A stretch of DNA of 7,370 bases from Candidatus Fermentibacterota bacterium (GTDB taxonomy: Bacteria > JAFGKV01). Position 1 is the first letter of the stretch. Each line of letters begins with the position of its first letter. Below the pieces are notes generated by a model, which was not told where the DNA came from, did not search any database, and worked only from the letters and a program-made list of their open reading frames with translations. This document shows positions 129 through 7,283 of the stretch, piece after piece. The DNA is taken from the NCBI GenBank assembly GCA_030620115.1, contig JAUXFG010000177.1:1-7370 (forward strand), given 5' to 3'. The translations under genes and the position numbers were made by a program.

Positions 129-1958
129 GTGGAGTTGTTTTCCGAAGAAACAATCATTGCGAGATGCACGAGGAAGGCGGTTGGCGCCCTTCTTGGCCTG
201 ATCGCTGCGGCGACTCTTGTGTTCTCAGCCTGCTCCAACAGTCCACCCAACATCCTGCTCGTCACGTTGGACACGACGCGTGCCGATCGCCTTGGTTGCT
301 ATGGCTACTCGTTGGGTCATACGCCGGTTATCGACTCACTTGCCGCGTTGGGAACGCTCTTCCTTTCGGCCTACACGCCGGTCCCGCTCACATTACCCGC
401 CCACGCGACGATTCTGACGGGTATTGAACCCTGGGAGCATGGGGTGCGGGACAATGGATTCCATCGTCTCGATGAGCATAGGCCGAGACTTGCCGGCAAA
501 CTTTCCGAAGCCGGATACCGGTGTGGCGCTATTGTTGCTGCATACCCACTCATTCGCCAATACGGTCTTTCCGGTGGATTCGATCTCTACGATGACGAGC
601 TCCCCTCCATGGATGGGGGGTTCGTCTACCCTGAGAGAAAGGCGCCGGCCGTAACCGATGCTGCTCTTGCGGCGCTCTCCAGAAGCGATTGGTGGGAACC
701 CATTTTCCTCTGGGTTCACTACTTCGATCCGCACACGCCGTACGAAGCCTTGTGCGGGGGGCTCTCCGGCTATGATGCAGAGATCGCTCTGATGGATAGG
801 GAGATAGGCCGGTTGTTGCGAGGCCTCCCGAAAGGTCGCTGGGTCATCTGTGTCGTGGGTGACCACGGCGAGGGGCTTGGGGATCATGGTGAGGATACTC
901 ATGGGGATATGCTGTACTCATCCACCATGCGAGTTCCCCTCATTTTTGCCGGGGCTGGTTGGCCGTCAGGAGTCGCTCGTCCCGAGCCCGCGACCTTGTC
1001 GGATCTGGCGCCTACCCTTCTTCATTGCGCCGGCATTCCCGCAGCGGAGTTTCCGGGGAATGATCTCAAGGAAAGATGCGCAGAACGGATCATCAGAGGG
1101 GAAACGCTGCATCCTTTGTACCGATATGGATGGCCGCCATTGCGATCTGTGCAGCGGGGATCCATGAAGCTGATCAGCGGAGAGATCGCGGAGCTCTATG
1201 ATCTATCACGAGATCCCGGAGAGCTCCACAACTTGTCTTCAGAACGACATGACTCGGTCACCTCTCTGACCGTGCAACTCCCGCCTCAGGTTGTTCCTCG
1301 CAAGACAGTGGCCCTCTCCACCACCGATCGGCGAGCTCTACTGGCCTTGGGATATCTTGATGAGCCGGGAGCCCAAATCGCGTGCCGTGAGAGCCTTCTT
1401 GTTCTGTTGGAAGAGGGGAACAGGTATGCCCAGGAAGGGCAGTGGGTTGATGCGCAAAGGACGTTCTTGCGCGTACTCCGGCACGACTCGGGTAACCTGT
1501 GGGCTCGTTTGGGCGTGGGAACCTGTCAAATCCGCCGGGGGGAGATCGAGAGCGCCGACAGCACATTTTTGGCTCTTTATCAGGAATACCCCGACTATCT
1601 ACCCGTGTTACAGAATCTTGCCATGATCAGGTGGATGGTGGGGAATTTCGAGGGAGCGGAGCAGTTCAATCGACTGGTGTTGGCGCGAATGCCCGAGGAC
1701 GCCACTGCGTTGCTCTATCTGGCAATGATCCTACGCCACGCCCATCAGTATGAGGAGAGCCGGCGGTGCTATGAGAAATTGGTCAAGATTCGACCTCACG
1801 ACGCGCATGTGCAGCGGGATCTGGGGAGCCTTCTTGCTTATGAGTTCAAGGAACATGGAGCAGCATCTGACTGTTGGGCCAAGGCATTGGAGATTGATCC
1901 CCTCCTCGATCAACGCGAGGCCATGGAACGGGAGATGAAACGGTGGCGTGAGGAATGA
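129..1958 (+). CDS. Sulfatase-fold lipoprotein with C-terminal TPR repeats and a Thr nucleophile
   Basis: The protein has 609 residues from the GTG at 129, or 611 if ATG 123 is used; numbering here is from 129. A basic n-region and hydrophobic stretch end in a lipobox-like FSA-C, giving a lipidated Cys35. The alkaline-phosphatase/sulfatase fold starts at Asn41 and runs to about 370. Visible landmarks are the metal ligand Asp48 (LDTTRAD), the nucleophile loop TLPAHATILTG (88-98), HYFDPH (197-202), the metal ligands Asp245-His246 (GDHGEG) and His258, and the family C-terminal signature ELYDLSRDPGELHNL (355-369). A linker (LSTTDRRALLALGYL, about 396-410) leads to five consecutive TPR-like units of about 34 residues (about 422-591) and a charged tail. 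TPRs usually bind protein partners. Thr88 replaces the Cys/Ser of sulfatases, Arg is His92 and the sulfate-binding Lys is missing, so it is probably a phosphotransferase or phosphodiesterase-like enzyme at the membrane rather than a sulfatase. The substrate is unknown. Fold and TPR calls are firm; chemistry is inferred. Confidence 0.9.
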   Translation: MELFSEETIIARCTRKAVGALLGLIAAATLVFSACSNSPPNILLVTLDTTRADRLGCYGYSLGHTPVIDSLAALGTLFLSAYTPVPLTLPAHATILTGIEPWEHGVRDNGFHRLDEHRPRLAGKLSEAGYRCGAIVAAYPLIRQYGLSGGFDLYDDELPSMDGGFVYPERKAPAVTDAALAALSRSDWWEPIFLWVHYFDPHTPYEALCGGLSGYDAEIALMDREIGRLLRGLPKGRWVICVVGDHGEGLGDHGEDTHGDMLYSSTMRVPLIFAGAGWPSGVARPEPATLSDLAPTLLHCAGIPAAEFPGNDLKERCAERIIRGETLHPLYRYGWPPLRSVQRGSMKLISGEIAELYDLSRDPGELHNLSSERHDSVTSLTVQLPPQVVPRKTVALSTTDRRALLALGYLDEPGAQIACRESLLVLLEEGNRYAQEGQWVDAQRTFLRVLRHDSGNLWARLGVGTCQIRRGEIESADSTFLALYQEYPDYLPVLQNLAMIRWMVGNFEGAEQFNRLVLARMPEDATALLYLAMILRHAHQYEESRRCYEKLVKIRPHDAHVQRDLGSLLAYEFKEHGAASDCWAKALEIDPLLDQREAMEREMKRWREE

Positions 1959-2030: not shown

Positions 2031-2129
2031 CCTCTGATCAATCCGGCGATAGTCTTCTTTGGTCGCCCAATTAACCCGTAGTACCCTTGTTCCGCGTTGA
2101 TGTCCAACCATCTCCCGTCTGTTTCTTTT

Positions 2130-2135
2130 GGAGGG
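2130..2135 (+). promoter_or_regulatory. Ribosome binding site that fixes the protease start at ATG 2143
   Basis: GGAGGG lies 7 nt before the ATG at 2143. An in-frame TTG at 2128 overlaps this site, so it cannot be served by it, and starting there would put five extra residues ahead of a well-formed signal peptide. ATG 2143 is the clear choice. Confidence 0.8.
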
Positions 2136-2142
2136 TTCCTTC

Positions 2143-5100
2143 ATGATCACCCATACTCGCTTTCTCATGATTTTTCTTTCGTTGTTCTGTATCTTGCTTC
2201 TGCAGGGATCTACATCGTCGGCTTGGGCAGAGAAATCAGTTGATCTGACCGCACGTCAAGATGCGCTCCAGCTGCTGGAGAACAGCCCTGGCGGGCTACG
2301 AGTCGCCTATACCTTCTCTCGAATACAGAGCTTCGAGGTTCAAACTGAACGCGGTACATTCTCACATATCAGCATGCCTGGGCTCACCCATTCGACGCGT
2401 ATTGGAGCGCCTAAGCTCCCGGTGAGTCGCCGAATAATTTCGGTTCCGCTGGAAGCTCGCGTTCTGGCTCGTGCAGTGTCTTTCGAGCGCGAGGAGATTC
2501 CCCTCGCTGAATCCGGGATCGATCATCCCATCATGCCGGCACAGCCCTCGCTCTCGAAGAGCCAGTCTCCTGAAGATATGCCTTTTGAATATCGCGAGGA
2601 GTCCTATGCCATTCATGGATTTGGCGATCGTCCGCTGGTGCAGGTGGAGGAGTTGGGAATCCTGCGAGGTTTGCGTCTTTTTCGTTTGATCGTTGAGCCG
2701 GTTCGGTATGACCCGTCCAGCCAAGTGATCGAGGTCTATAACAATCTTGAAGTGGAGATCGAGTTCTCAGGCGGAGATTTCCATGGCACCGAGAATCTGC
2801 GTTGGAAATCATGGTCGCCATACTATGAGGCGGTGTATCAGCGTTGGGTGTTGAACTACATCCCGTTGGACATGCCGAAAGATGATCTCACCCGATATCC
2901 TATCAAGTATATCATTGTTTCGGATCCTATGTTCGAGGCCCAGTTGCAGCCATTCATTGAGTGGAAGACGCAGCAGGGCTTCGAGGTTTTTGTTGGCTAT
3001 GTTGGTGATCCGGACGTGGGATCCACCACGAGCTCCATCAAGAGCTATATCCAAGGCATCTATAACGCAGAGGAACCCAAACCAAGCTTCGTCCTTTTCG
3101 TCGGCGACAGGGAGCAGGTCCCTGCGTGGAACGGGAGTACTGGTGGCCACATCACCGATCTGAACTACGTCAGGCTCGAAGGAAGTGACTACATGCCCGA
3201 GATGTACTATGGCCGTTTCTCTGCACGGAACACCGATGAGCTCCAACCGCAAATCGACAAGACTCTGGAGTACGAGCGATACGAGATGCCGGATCCGGCC
3301 TTTCTGGGCGAGGTGGTGATGATCGCCGGCATGGATAGCGGTCATGGCTCAACCTGGGGTAATGGCCAAATCAACTACGGCACTACGTACTACTTCAACG
3401 GGCCACATGGGATCTTCTCTCACACCTATCTTTACCCGGAATCAGGCAGCAATTCCGCCAATATCATCAATGATGTAAGCAACGGGGTGGGATACGCAAA
3501 CTACACCGCCCATGGCGGAACGACTTCCTGGTCAAACCCCAGCTTCACCATCTCTGACATCAACAGCTTGAACAATGCATCCGAATACCCAACAGTGGTG
3601 GGCAATTGTTGCCTGACCAATGCGTTCGGTACCGGTACATGCTTCGGAGAGGCGTGGCTTCGTGCCGAGAACAAGGGCGCCATCGGCTATATCGGAGGCA
3701 CCAATAGCACCTACTGGGATGAGGATTACTGGTGGGGCGTCGGCGCCGGAACCATTGTCTCTAATCCGACCTACGAGACCCATGGTCTGGGCGCCTATGA
3801 CGGTATGTTCCACGACCATGGCGAGGTTTTCAGAGACTGGTACACCACCCAGTACGCAGTCATCATGGCCGGCAATTTAGCGGTGGTGGAAGGAGGTGGG
3901 AGTGACAACTACTACTGGGAGATCTATGCGCTCATGGGTGATCCCTCCCTTTCCACCTATTTTGCGGTGCCGTCGGCAAATACGGTCAGCTACCCTGGCG
4001 CCATTCTCATCGGGGAGAGCTCGATTCAGGTCACCGCGGATCAGTACTCGTATGTAGGGCTGAGCAAAGACGGAGAACTGTGCGCTTCCGGACTGGTAGA
4101 GAGCAGGGGGCAGATCACTCTGGAATTCGAGCCCTTCATGATTCCGGGTCAGGCCGATCTTGTCATTACACGACAGAATCGAGAACCTGTGATCACGACC
4201 ATTGATGTAATCCCCAACGAAGGCTCGTATGTGGTCATCGATTCGACATTCATTGACGATACCACTGGGGGTAACGGTGATTTCGCCATCGACGTAGGCG
4301 AGAATGCGGCCCTTACGGTATTCCTGAAGAATGTTGGTACACAGACTGCTTCATCGGTGGTGGGTTCGCTCTATACCGACCAGGCCGAGGTAACGATTAC
4401 GGATCCAGTCCAGGCGTTCGGCGATTTGACGTCGGGGCAGATGGGAGGCTCCGGCGCTCCGTACGGCGTTGATTTGGGCACTGTAGATGATGGCGCTTCT
4501 CTTCCTTTCTATCTGAAGATCACCGCGGCAGAATCATTATGGATACGTGATTTCCTCCTGCAGGCTCATGCGCCGATCCTGGCTCAAGAAGGGTGGCAGA
4601 TAAATGACGCGTCAGGCAATGGGAATGGAAGGCCTGATCCAGGCGAGACGGTGGAGCTCACCATAGTGGTCGGCAATACCGGATCCGGTGATGCAGCAAA
4701 TGCGCAGCTCACCTTGGATGATTCCGATCCCTACGTGACCATCACGGAGCCATCCACGCAGAGCCTTGGGCAGATACTATCGGGGAACCAGGTTACCAGC
4801 CCATCATTCGTGGTGACCTTTGATGTCGCATGCCCTGAGGCTTATGCTGCCATAATCCCGATCCAGTTCGCCTCCAACGGTGGAGCGTATAGCAACACGG
4901 GGTCGTTGACCCTTATCGTGGGTCAGCGCGAGCTCCTGTTCGTTGATTCGGACAATGAGACTACCGAGGGTCGGATTGTCACAGCCCTCGATGCGTGGGG
5001 AGGCTCATACCGCAGATTGGACGTGCACAACCAGGAGACCGTGCCTGTGGACACTCTTCTTTCGTACCGCATGGTGCTCTGGTCAGCGGGAGACCAGAAT

Positions 5101-5868
5101 GTCTCCAGCCTCACGGAGGCAAACCAGACCAACATGGCATCGTACCTCGACCAGGGTGGGGCGCTGCTTTTTACCGCGGAGAATTATCTCACTTCGTATG
5201 GGAGTACATCCTTCACGTCCGACTATCTTCATGTTGGATCATATGAGACGAGCATAAGCGGAACAAATATTGTCGGGGAGCCGGGCGATCCCATCGGTGA
5301 CGGCATTTCACTGACATTGAGCTATCCATCCGGTCTTGCGGAATACCCAGACCGTGTCACGCCGGATGCGGAGGCCGCGGTTGTCTTTCGCATGGAAGGA
5401 AGCAATGATCCTATTGCCATCCGATACCCTGGCAGCGGCTCATCAGTGTTCCGGGTTGTGTTCTTTGGTGTGGCTCTGGAAGCGTTTCCATCGAGCGGTA
5501 TGAGCCGCAATGATGTAGAAACCGTGGTATCCGATTGTCTGGGATGGTTGGGTGGCAGCGGGGACTTCATTGCCCCCACCACGCCGGGAGACGTGATATT
5601 TGCGGCAGATGGAATCCTGAGCTGGAGCGCATCCACGGATAACGTGGGCGTTGACCACTACAGTATCTACCGGAGTACCAATGCGTACTTCGACGTGGAC
5701 GGCATGACGCCTCTACAGACGACTGCCGGGACCAGCGCCTCGTTTCCAGGCAGTGTAGGAGATCCGATCATTAACTACTACTTCCGCGTGACGGCTACGG
5801 ACGGTGCTGACAACGAGTCAACGCCTTCAAACCCGGTAGGGGAGCATGATTTTAGCCTGAATGGTTAG
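2143..5868 (+). CDS. Secreted gingipain-like (peptidase family C25) multidomain cysteine protease
   Basis: The protein has 1241 residues from ATG 2143. A type I signal peptide ends in AWA-E, with cleavage expected after Ala29. Residues of about 30-250 resemble the C25 propeptide. The peptidase domain runs from about Pro253 to GDPS (599-602). It contains the catalytic His457 (NYTAHGG), the Cys in NCCLTNAF (Cys490 by alignment to RgpB Cys244, preceded by Cys489) and the typical CFGEAWLRA at 500-508. Asp398 sits where RgpB has Glu152. A gingipain-type Ig-like domain follows (about 612-691), then two related beta-sandwich modules with Asn/Asp/Gly-rich GE motifs (about 700-810 and 815-928). Next comes a glutamine-amidotransferase-like Rossmann domain without a visible nucleophile Cys (about 930-1137), and a fibronectin III domain (about 1147-1232). 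It ends in GEHDFSLNG, with no type IX sorting domain that I can recognise. The role is an exported endopeptidase, secreted or on the surface. The family call is strong; specificity and export route are open. Confidence 0.92.
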   Translation: MITHTRFLMIFLSLFCILLLQGSTSSAWAEKSVDLTARQDALQLLENSPGGLRVAYTFSRIQSFEVQTERGTFSHISMPGLTHSTRIGAPKLPVSRRIISVPLEARVLARAVSFEREEIPLAESGIDHPIMPAQPSLSKSQSPEDMPFEYREESYAIHGFGDRPLVQVEELGILRGLRLFRLIVEPVRYDPSSQVIEVYNNLEVEIEFSGGDFHGTENLRWKSWSPYYEAVYQRWVLNYIPLDMPKDDLTRYPIKYIIVSDPMFEAQLQPFIEWKTQQGFEVFVGYVGDPDVGSTTSSIKSYIQGIYNAEEPKPSFVLFVGDREQVPAWNGSTGGHITDLNYVRLEGSDYMPEMYYGRFSARNTDELQPQIDKTLEYERYEMPDPAFLGEVVMIAGMDSGHGSTWGNGQINYGTTYYFNGPHGIFSHTYLYPESGSNSANIINDVSNGVGYANYTAHGGTTSWSNPSFTISDINSLNNASEYPTVVGNCCLTNAFGTGTCFGEAWLRAENKGAIGYIGGTNSTYWDEDYWWGVGAGTIVSNPTYETHGLGAYDGMFHDHGEVFRDWYTTQYAVIMAGNLAVVEGGGSDNYYWEIYALMGDPSLSTYFAVPSANTVSYPGAILIGESSIQVTADQYSYVGLSKDGELCASGLVESRGQITLEFEPFMIPGQADLVITRQNREPVITTIDVIPNEGSYVVIDSTFIDDTTGGNGDFAIDVGENAALTVFLKNVGTQTASSVVGSLYTDQAEVTITDPVQAFGDLTSGQMGGSGAPYGVDLGTVDDGASLPFYLKITAAESLWIRDFLLQAHAPILAQEGWQINDASGNGNGRPDPGETVELTIVVGNTGSGDAANAQLTLDDSDPYVTITEPSTQSLGQILSGNQVTSPSFVVTFDVACPEAYAAIIPIQFASNGGAYSNTGSLTLIVGQRELLFVDSDNETTEGRIVTALDAWGGSYRRLDVHNQETVPVDTLLSYRMVLWSAGDQNVSSLTEANQTNMASYLDQGGALLFTAENYLTSYGSTSFTSDYLHVGSYETSISGTNIVGEPGDPIGDGISLTLSYPSGLAEYPDRVTPDAEAAVVFRMEGSNDPIAIRYPGSGSSVFRVVFFGVALEAFPSSGMSRNDVETVVSDCLGWLGGSGDFIAPTTPGDVIFAADGILSWSASTDNVGVDHYSIYRSTNAYFDVDGMTPLQTTAGTSASFPGSVGDPIINYYFRVTATDGADNESTPSNPVGEHDFSLNG

Positions 5869-5927: not shown

Positions 5928-7283
5928 ATGACGAGTTCACCTCCTTCCAGAATACTGGCCTTTGCTTTGATCCTGCTATTCTTGGGTTTCATTGGTTTGG
6001 CGCTGCCCCTGGTCTCTTGCGCAAAGAAACAACCCAACCTCCTATTGATCACCATTGACACGCTCAGGCGGGACGCACTGGGCATCTACTCCCCTGATGT
6101 CTGGTGGACGCCCACCATGGACTCGATTGCTGGATCGGGGACCGTATGGGATGAGGCAAGGGCACCCTTTACGCTCACGCAGCCCAGCCATGCTACAATG
6201 ATGACAGGGCTCTATCCCGCTGAACACGGAGTTTGCTCGAATAGGTCGTGTTTGCAGGATGCCTTCAGCTCATTGGCCGAGGAACTAAGCATCGAGGGTT
6301 ACCAATGCGGGGCATTTATCAACACGTGGGTCTTGGATCGCGGTGCTGGCTTTGGGCAGGGGTTCTCCCTCTTTACACGGGCAGAAAAGGAGTCTTTGCT
6401 CGCTCCGGTCCGCATTCGTGAGAAAGGGGATCGTCTTGTCTGGTGGAGAATAAATCCCAAGGCAGGTCGAAGCGTGGACATGGCTCTCGGATGGCTTTCC
6501 GATGCGCACGAACCATTTTTTCTCTGGTTACATCTGATGGATCCACATCTGGACTATGCTCCTCCAGATTCGGCACTTCAGATTCTGGGAGCCCCAGACA
6601 TCCCATCGGAGCTTGGATCAAGAGAGTACATAAGAGATCGCGAGGATTCGAACCAACCCCTCACCGAGCTTGAGATTTCGCAGGTAAGACTCCTCTATGC
6701 TGGTGAGGTTGCATACGTGGACATGGCTTTGCGGGACCTGTTCCATGGGATTCGACGGAGCAACAAGTCCTCTCGAACTGTGATCGTCTTGGTGTCTGAC
6801 CATGGAGAGAGCATCTTTGATGATGGGAGATATGTTGGACACGCATATTCCCTGGATGAGAGTGTTGTCCGTATTCCACTTGTGCTGACGGGATACCACA
6901 TTCCCAGGGAGACTCGTATCCAAGCGCCAGTGGGATTGGTGCAGCTCAAGCCCACACTACTCGATCTCCTTGGTGTAGCGCCAGCGAAAGAAGCTGTTCC
7001 AGGGCTTTTTTCCAATACGGACAGAGTCCAGATCACTGGAGATATAAAAGGAAGGATGCTCGCGCATTGGAGGGGCTGGGAATGCGTGTGGTCAGAAGGG
7101 AAGAAACAGCCGGAGCAAATAGCGAGAGGAGATGCTGACAGCATGCTGGCAGCATCGGTTATGGATTCGGTTTACGAAGCCCTGATAGATATCTCAAGAA
7201 GACCAGTATCGAGATCCCTCGGTCAGCACGACATTGAGGAACTACAAGCGTTGGCCCAAGTTCACCTCTGTTTTGCGAACTGA
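5928..7283 (+). CDS. Sulfatase-fold lipoprotein without TPR repeats, Thr nucleophile
   Basis: The protein has 451 residues. The ATG lies 8 nt after a weak purine-rich site (GAGAGAG, 5913-5919). The N-terminus has an Arg followed by a hydrophobic run and an LVS-C lipobox, giving lipidated Cys31. The sulfatase fold begins six residues later (PNLLLITID). Metal ligands are Asp44, Asp291-His292 (SDHGES) and His305. The nucleophile loop is TQPSHATMMTG (84-94) and the substrate-side motif is HLMDPH (202-207). As in the upstream lipoprotein, Thr84 takes the place of the sulfatase Cys/Ser and His88 that of Arg, and the sulfate-binding Lys is absent. The C-terminal part (about 360-451) is diverged, with no clear ELYDL..DP signature. 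The protein stops just after a segment (QHDIEELQALAQV) that resembles the linker before the TPRs in the upstream paralogue. The gap to the protease gene is 59 nt without a clear promoter, suggesting co-transcription. It is probably a membrane-anchored phospho- or related transferase or hydrolase; the substrate is unknown. Confidence 0.88.
   Translation: MTSSPPSRILAFALILLFLGFIGLALPLVSCAKKQPNLLLITIDTLRRDALGIYSPDVWWTPTMDSIAGSGTVWDEARAPFTLTQPSHATMMTGLYPAEHGVCSNRSCLQDAFSSLAEELSIEGYQCGAFINTWVLDRGAGFGQGFSLFTRAEKESLLAPVRIREKGDRLVWWRINPKAGRSVDMALGWLSDAHEPFFLWLHLMDPHLDYAPPDSALQILGAPDIPSELGSREYIRDREDSNQPLTELEISQVRLLYAGEVAYVDMALRDLFHGIRRSNKSSRTVIVLVSDHGESIFDDGRYVGHAYSLDESVVRIPLVLTGYHIPRETRIQAPVGLVQLKPTLLDLLGVAPAKEAVPGLFSNTDRVQITGDIKGRMLAHWRGWECVWSEGKKQPEQIARGDADSMLAASVMDSVYEALIDISRRPVSRSLGQHDIEELQALAQVHLCFAN

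Follow-up and report, generated by a model that had tools for sequence, protein, structure and literature searches.

What chemistry is carried out by a PF00884 protein that has threonine in place of the catalytic Cys or Ser of sulfatases? The DNA analysed here (the window) is one whole contig of 7,370 bases (G000:C133) from a host genome of 4.1 Mb that is 98% complete, and it holds three large open reading frames, all on the + strand, at 123–1958, 2128–5868 and 5928–7283. The first, as delimited by the ORF list, Pfam and fold matching, encodes a protein of 611 residues in which PF00884 matches residues 42–305 with 102.7 bits, the structural match extends over residues 40–390, and TPR models from Pfam match the C-terminal part at residues ∼430–595. 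The protein has one hydrophobic segment (residues 18–40) and no multi-pass N-terminal membrane domain. A lipobox-like FSAC (residues 34–37; 222–233, + strand), recognized from the motif and from orthologues, ends in Cys37, the predicted lipidated residue, which stands behind the hydrophobic segment and is invariant in six relatives; the lipoboxes of two orthologues read LVGC and VLGC. The protein is therefore, as originally described, a putative TPR lipoprotein; it would be lipid-anchored at Cys37 and would face the periplasm or the surface.

The loop that raised the question, TLPAHATILTG (residues 90–100), was found at nt 390–422 (+ strand) within this reading frame and can be aligned to C/S-x-P-x-R...TG, the signature of sulfatases, with no gap, as the original prediction had stated; in the profile alignment to solved sulfatases, ‘ltlPaHasl’ lies over ‘ALSGPSRACIL’. 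Translation, alignment and the structural model place the predicted nucleophile at Thr90 and His94 in the position of the sulfatase Arg when residues are counted from the ATG at 123; the numbers first given, Thr88 and His92, were two too low. Residues 90–94 thus read T-L-P-A-H rather than C/S-x-P-x-R, giving the protein the two marks of a Thr-type PF00884 member, a Thr where the nucleophile belongs and the loss of the signature Arg. The Lys of the GKWHL motif is also missing, IVAAYPL being found there (residues 137–143). A further argument, that HYFDPH has lost the Lys of a ‘usual K-x-P-H’, had to be dropped, because Lys occupies that column in only one of nine sampled Cys-type proteins; K-x-P-H is no general sulfatase feature and its absence means little. 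Elsewhere in the domain, alignment and conservation point to Asp50 as a metal ligand in Asp50-Thr51 (LDTTRAD; 270–275, + strand), with Thr51 occupying the position where Cys-type sulfatases carry D, Q or N. Asn111 (HGVRDN; 453–455, + strand) lies 21 residues past Thr90. Conservation makes His199 and His204 of HYFDPH (residues 199–204; 717–734, + strand) candidate ligands of a second metal, and GDHGEGLGDHGEDTHG (residues 246–261; 858–905, + strand) holds Asp247 and His248, predicted metal ligands, together with His260.

A single-sequence scan of genome contigs found no relatives. A profile scan of a species-level genome collection returned at least 580, of which the 80 nearest were kept; these come from Planctomycetes, Acidobacteria, Aminicenantes, Deltaproteobacteria, Eisenbacteria and other groups. 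All 80 keep Thr90, Asp50, Thr51, Asn111, His199, His204, Asp247, His248 and His260, and 79 keep His94, at 28–44% identity. Two sister genomes have orthologues, 52% identical overall, in which the loop is TLPAHASLMTG or TLPAHASMMTG. The host genome has 23 PF00884 genes; among the 22 others, Thr occupies the nucleophile position in 21 and Cys or Ser in none, while the remaining paralogue, L023, has Arg aligned there and matches PF00884 poorly. Thr in all 80 nearest homologues and 21 of 22 paralogues does not arise by chance; it is a property of the family, whose Thr-type members in bacteria number hundreds or more and are unstudied. The expectation that Thr at this position would be something unusual was not borne out, since it is the rule in a very large group, and the mislabelling of such proteins was published in 2016.

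For contrast, 30 PF00884 genes were picked from five other genomes by family score alone, nine of which proved to be Cys-type. Both Arg at +4 and GKWH with its Lys were present in all nine, while Arg at +4 was found in none of 123 Thr-type sequences (Fisher P = 3.9e-14, a value that ignores the relatedness of the sequences) and a Lys at the GKWHL position was not seen among the Thr-type rows and tallies inspected for the same 123. Conversely, His199 was present in 121 of 123 Thr-types and in none of the nine Cys-types; His204 was present in all. Comparison of the sequences thus indicates that Thr and Cys are exchanged as part of a coordinated active-site swap. Because the sequences are related, a tree is the better argument. 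In a tree of 61 rows, built by a quick method from an alignment stripped of the motif columns, a single branch (SH-aLRT 99) divides the Thr-types from the Cys-types, which argues that Thr is, in this sample, the trait of one coherent group and not the product of repeated sulfatase decay.

In the host genome we found no classical C/S-x-P-x-R sulfatase and no anSME maturase over the cut-off, radical SAM matches reaching at most 47 bits, far below it; none of its six FGE-like PF03781 proteins, one of them truncated, shows the Cys pair expected of FGE. The sister genome G002 offers a contrast: a radical SAM gene resembling a maturase, whose 319.6 bits fall just short of the curated cut-off, stands ∼0.5 kb from L169 (CSPFR, GKWHL), the only Cys-type among its sampled genes. 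The 611-residue protein is very unlikely to work through formylglycine, and the claim that a ‘sulfatase’ label would be wrong in chemistry is supported both by the joint loss of the Arg and signature Lys and by a host genome in which no classical sulfatase and no maturase over the cut-off was found.

An AlphaFold model built from 57 sequences has a mean pLDDT of 90.5 and a pTM of 0.87. In it a strand (residues 78–84) is followed by a helix with Thr90 as its first residue, and the nucleophile of the alkaline phosphatase superfamily sits at this strand-then-helix place (PMC11677397). The nearest solved structure is 6hr5 (Z 37.8, 327 residues aligned, 2.4 Å), with further matches to SpAS2 (4upl, Z 36.5) and the phosphonate monoester hydrolases 4uph (32.7) and 2vqr (32.4); no EptA, LtaS or NPP structure was among the fold matches listed. 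A profile search including the TPRs was swamped by TPR proteins, and when repeated on the catalytic domain alone its nearest solved structures, too, were S1 sulfatases and formylglycine phosphonate hydrolases. The N-terminal domain is thus modelled with the S1 sulfatase/phosphonate-hydrolase fold, sharing with 6hr5, 4upl and 2vqr the PF00884 match, ∼320–370 aligned residues at Z 32–38, and the Asp and His metal positions. The chemistry does not follow from the fold, however, and the 611-residue protein differs from these enzymes in having Thr for Cys/Ser, His for Arg, no GKWHL Lys, His260 near the place of the C-terminal Lys, and an extra His199.

The conserved residues find counterparts, in order and partly in spacing, among the metal and phosphate ligands of enzymes with a Thr nucleophile; D50, D247, H248, H204, H260 and N111 can all be so matched. 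MCR-1 binds Zn1 through E246, T285, D465 and H466, and H395 and H478 take part in a second zinc site (PMC5175174). Asp50, Thr90, Asp247 and His248 would stand in for the first set, and His204 (or His199) is a candidate for H395; His260 follows Asp247 by 13 residues, the same spacing as from D465 to H478. By residue match only, the protein therefore has the Thr, Asp-His metal pair and distal His of EptA, MCR and LtaS, and the metal geometry proposed here comes from this alignment. It differs from MCR-1/EptA in Asp50 for Glu246, the lack of a transmembrane domain, the TPR tail and the nucleophile loop sequence. The nucleophile of NPP3, T206, precedes its phosphate-binding residue N227 by 21 positions (PMC6052110), and Thr90 stands at the same distance from Asn111, so that the Thr and phosphate-binding Asn of NPPs (ENPP, XacNPP) are likewise present by residue match only; Asn111 alone is not diagnostic, because some Cys-types also have Asn there. 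The PF01663 phosphodiesterase model matches residues 45–114 above cut-off, a partial match whose best stretch spans profile positions 2–68 of 342, short of full length, and the rest of the domain, unlike an NPP, is S1-sulfatase-like. Scanning the PF01663 paralogues for NPP motifs with a regular expression produced no output.

We consider it likely that the 611-residue protein is a lipoprotein of the alkaline phosphatase superfamily, with the S1 fold, in which Thr90 itself is the nucleophile on phosphorus; Thr-based phosphoryl transfer is the likely chemistry. Direct attack by Thr90 is the best reading because of the residue match to MCR-1 and NPP, the PF01663 match and the missing Arg and Lys, whose equivalents are needed by the EfAS sulfatase (PMC12421950). 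What the analysis itself shows is the residue identities, their conservation, the correlated absence of sulfatase residues and a predicted fold; against this reading, the nearest solved structures in both sequence and model comparisons are S1 sulfatases and formylglycine phosphonate hydrolases, not EptA or NPP. No close relative found in this analysis has a known activity. We infer the metals, chemistry, substrate and location as follows. Asp50, Thr90, Asp247 and His248 would hold one metal, which would activate the Thr hydroxyl. His204 and/or His199 would hold a second metal together with His260, and this metal and Asn111 would bind the phosphoryl group. Attack of Thr90 on phosphorus would give a phospho-Thr intermediate, and the enzyme would be a phosphodiesterase or phosphatase if this is passed to water and a head-group transferase if it is passed to an acceptor. 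A partner protein is the probable target of the TPR tail. The original interpretation survives in that the protein is not a formylglycine sulfatase and its conserved residues match the Thr-nucleophile enzymes MCR-1 and NPP; its numbering, K-x-P-H argument and claim of unusualness do not.

A rival reading is a phosphotransferase of the EptA/MCR, OpgE or LtaS kind, which would move a phosphoethanolamine or phosphoglycerol head group, carried on phospho-Thr, from a lipid onto a glycan or protein of the surface. The nucleophile and ligand pattern is the same as in MCR-1, and in several Thr-type paralogues the catalytic domain is preceded by more than one transmembrane-like segment, as in EptA and LtaS. 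The 611-residue protein, however, has a lipidated signal segment only, carries Asp50 where MCR-1 has Glu246, and has hydrolases as its nearest solved structures, so that we regard a transferase as rather unlikely. With no transmembrane domain and a predicted lipid anchor as its only attachment, it would somewhat more probably hydrolyse phosphodiesters, soluble or on the surface, than act as a transferase in the manner of EptA or LtaS.

More distant readings abandon phosphorus or catalysis. The S1 fold and PF00884 match would suit a true sulfatase using an unmodified Thr, but neither the Arg nor the signature Lys is present, EfAS mutants in the Arg and Lys lose nearly all activity (PMC12421950), and no Thr-sulfatase had been demonstrated as of SulfAtlas (PMC5066984); we consider it extremely improbable. 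That the fold serves binding or regulation is suggested by the TPR domain, with its implication of protein partners, but a pseudoenzyme would hardly be expected to keep its metal-ligand positions invariant across near homologues so divergent in sequence, and YejM, long deemed inactive, has been reported to be a Mg-dependent phosphatase whose activity is ∼70% lower without its Thr. We therefore think a pseudoenzyme improbable.

The neighbouring genes do not name a pathway. Open reading frame 5928–7283 (+ strand; ORF list, Pfam) encodes a second Thr-type PF00884 lipoprotein of 451 residues, a paralogue of the first that has no TPR domain; its loop is TQPSHATMMTG, with Thr84, and its lipobox reads LVSC. 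Between them, 2128–5868 (+ strand) encodes a C25 peptidase resembling gingipains, in which Pfam matches a propeptide, C25_C and, weakly, CARDB. The TTG listed as its start is probably too early, and an ATG follows at 2143; the His of TAHGG (460) and the Cys of GNCC (492) resemble a catalytic pair, and Pfam reported no type IX sorting domain. The peptidase was not seen beside the two orthologues, one of which is on a short contig. What surrounds the 80 homologues is other PF00884 genes and families resembling surface proteins, with no pathway recurring among them; around the Thr-type TPR genes (loci L066–L145), further PF00884 genes occur at 13 loci, and by eye there are pilin-like DUF1559 neighbours in Planctomycetes and TonB-receptor-like and GWxTD-like ones in Aminicenantes. 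In the host genome, about 20 Thr-type copies amount to a striking expansion. Paralogues L002, L004, L007, L011 and L021 have 3 to 10 transmembrane-like segments before the Thr-type PF00884 domain (five in L002, six in L007 and about ten in L011). L021 and L024 (G000:C144:9989–10944) form one PF00884 gene in two pieces in different frames (profile 1–187 and 210–300), which appears to be a frameshift, a pseudogene or an assembly error.

That Thr-type PF00884 proteins are mislabelled has been known since 2016, and the 611-residue protein is a real, ordinary member of this group. SulfAtlas recorded Thr in 30 of 59 PF00884 seed sequences, did not expect formylglycine to be made from Thr, and noted that the PF00884 profile gave many false sulfatase annotations (PMC5066984); the main point of the original prediction was thus right but already published. 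We find no difference in kind from the SulfAtlas Thr-type proteins, this one being built as a lipoprotein with TPRs; our search of open-access papers found no characterized TPR-bearing Thr-type member. It is possible, if doubtful as a joint claim, that the Thr-type clade is a major class of enzymes, as yet untouched by experiment, that transfer phosphoryl groups with two metals on the S1-sulfatase scaffold, have a second metal site (His-x-x-Asp-x-His) of their own and have expanded to ∼20 copies per genome, and that its TPR-lipoprotein branch modifies or cleaves phosphodiesters on surface proteins or glycans. Annotation pipelines call Thr-type PF00884 proteins ‘sulfatase’, and the host genome has 23 PF00884 genes, yet apparently no classical sulfatase at all; sulfatase counts in Planctomycetes, Acidobacteria and similar genomes will be inflated unless the nucleophile is checked. 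Since the Thr-type group is widespread, with many copies per genome and no characterized close member found, one activity assay would inform many genes.
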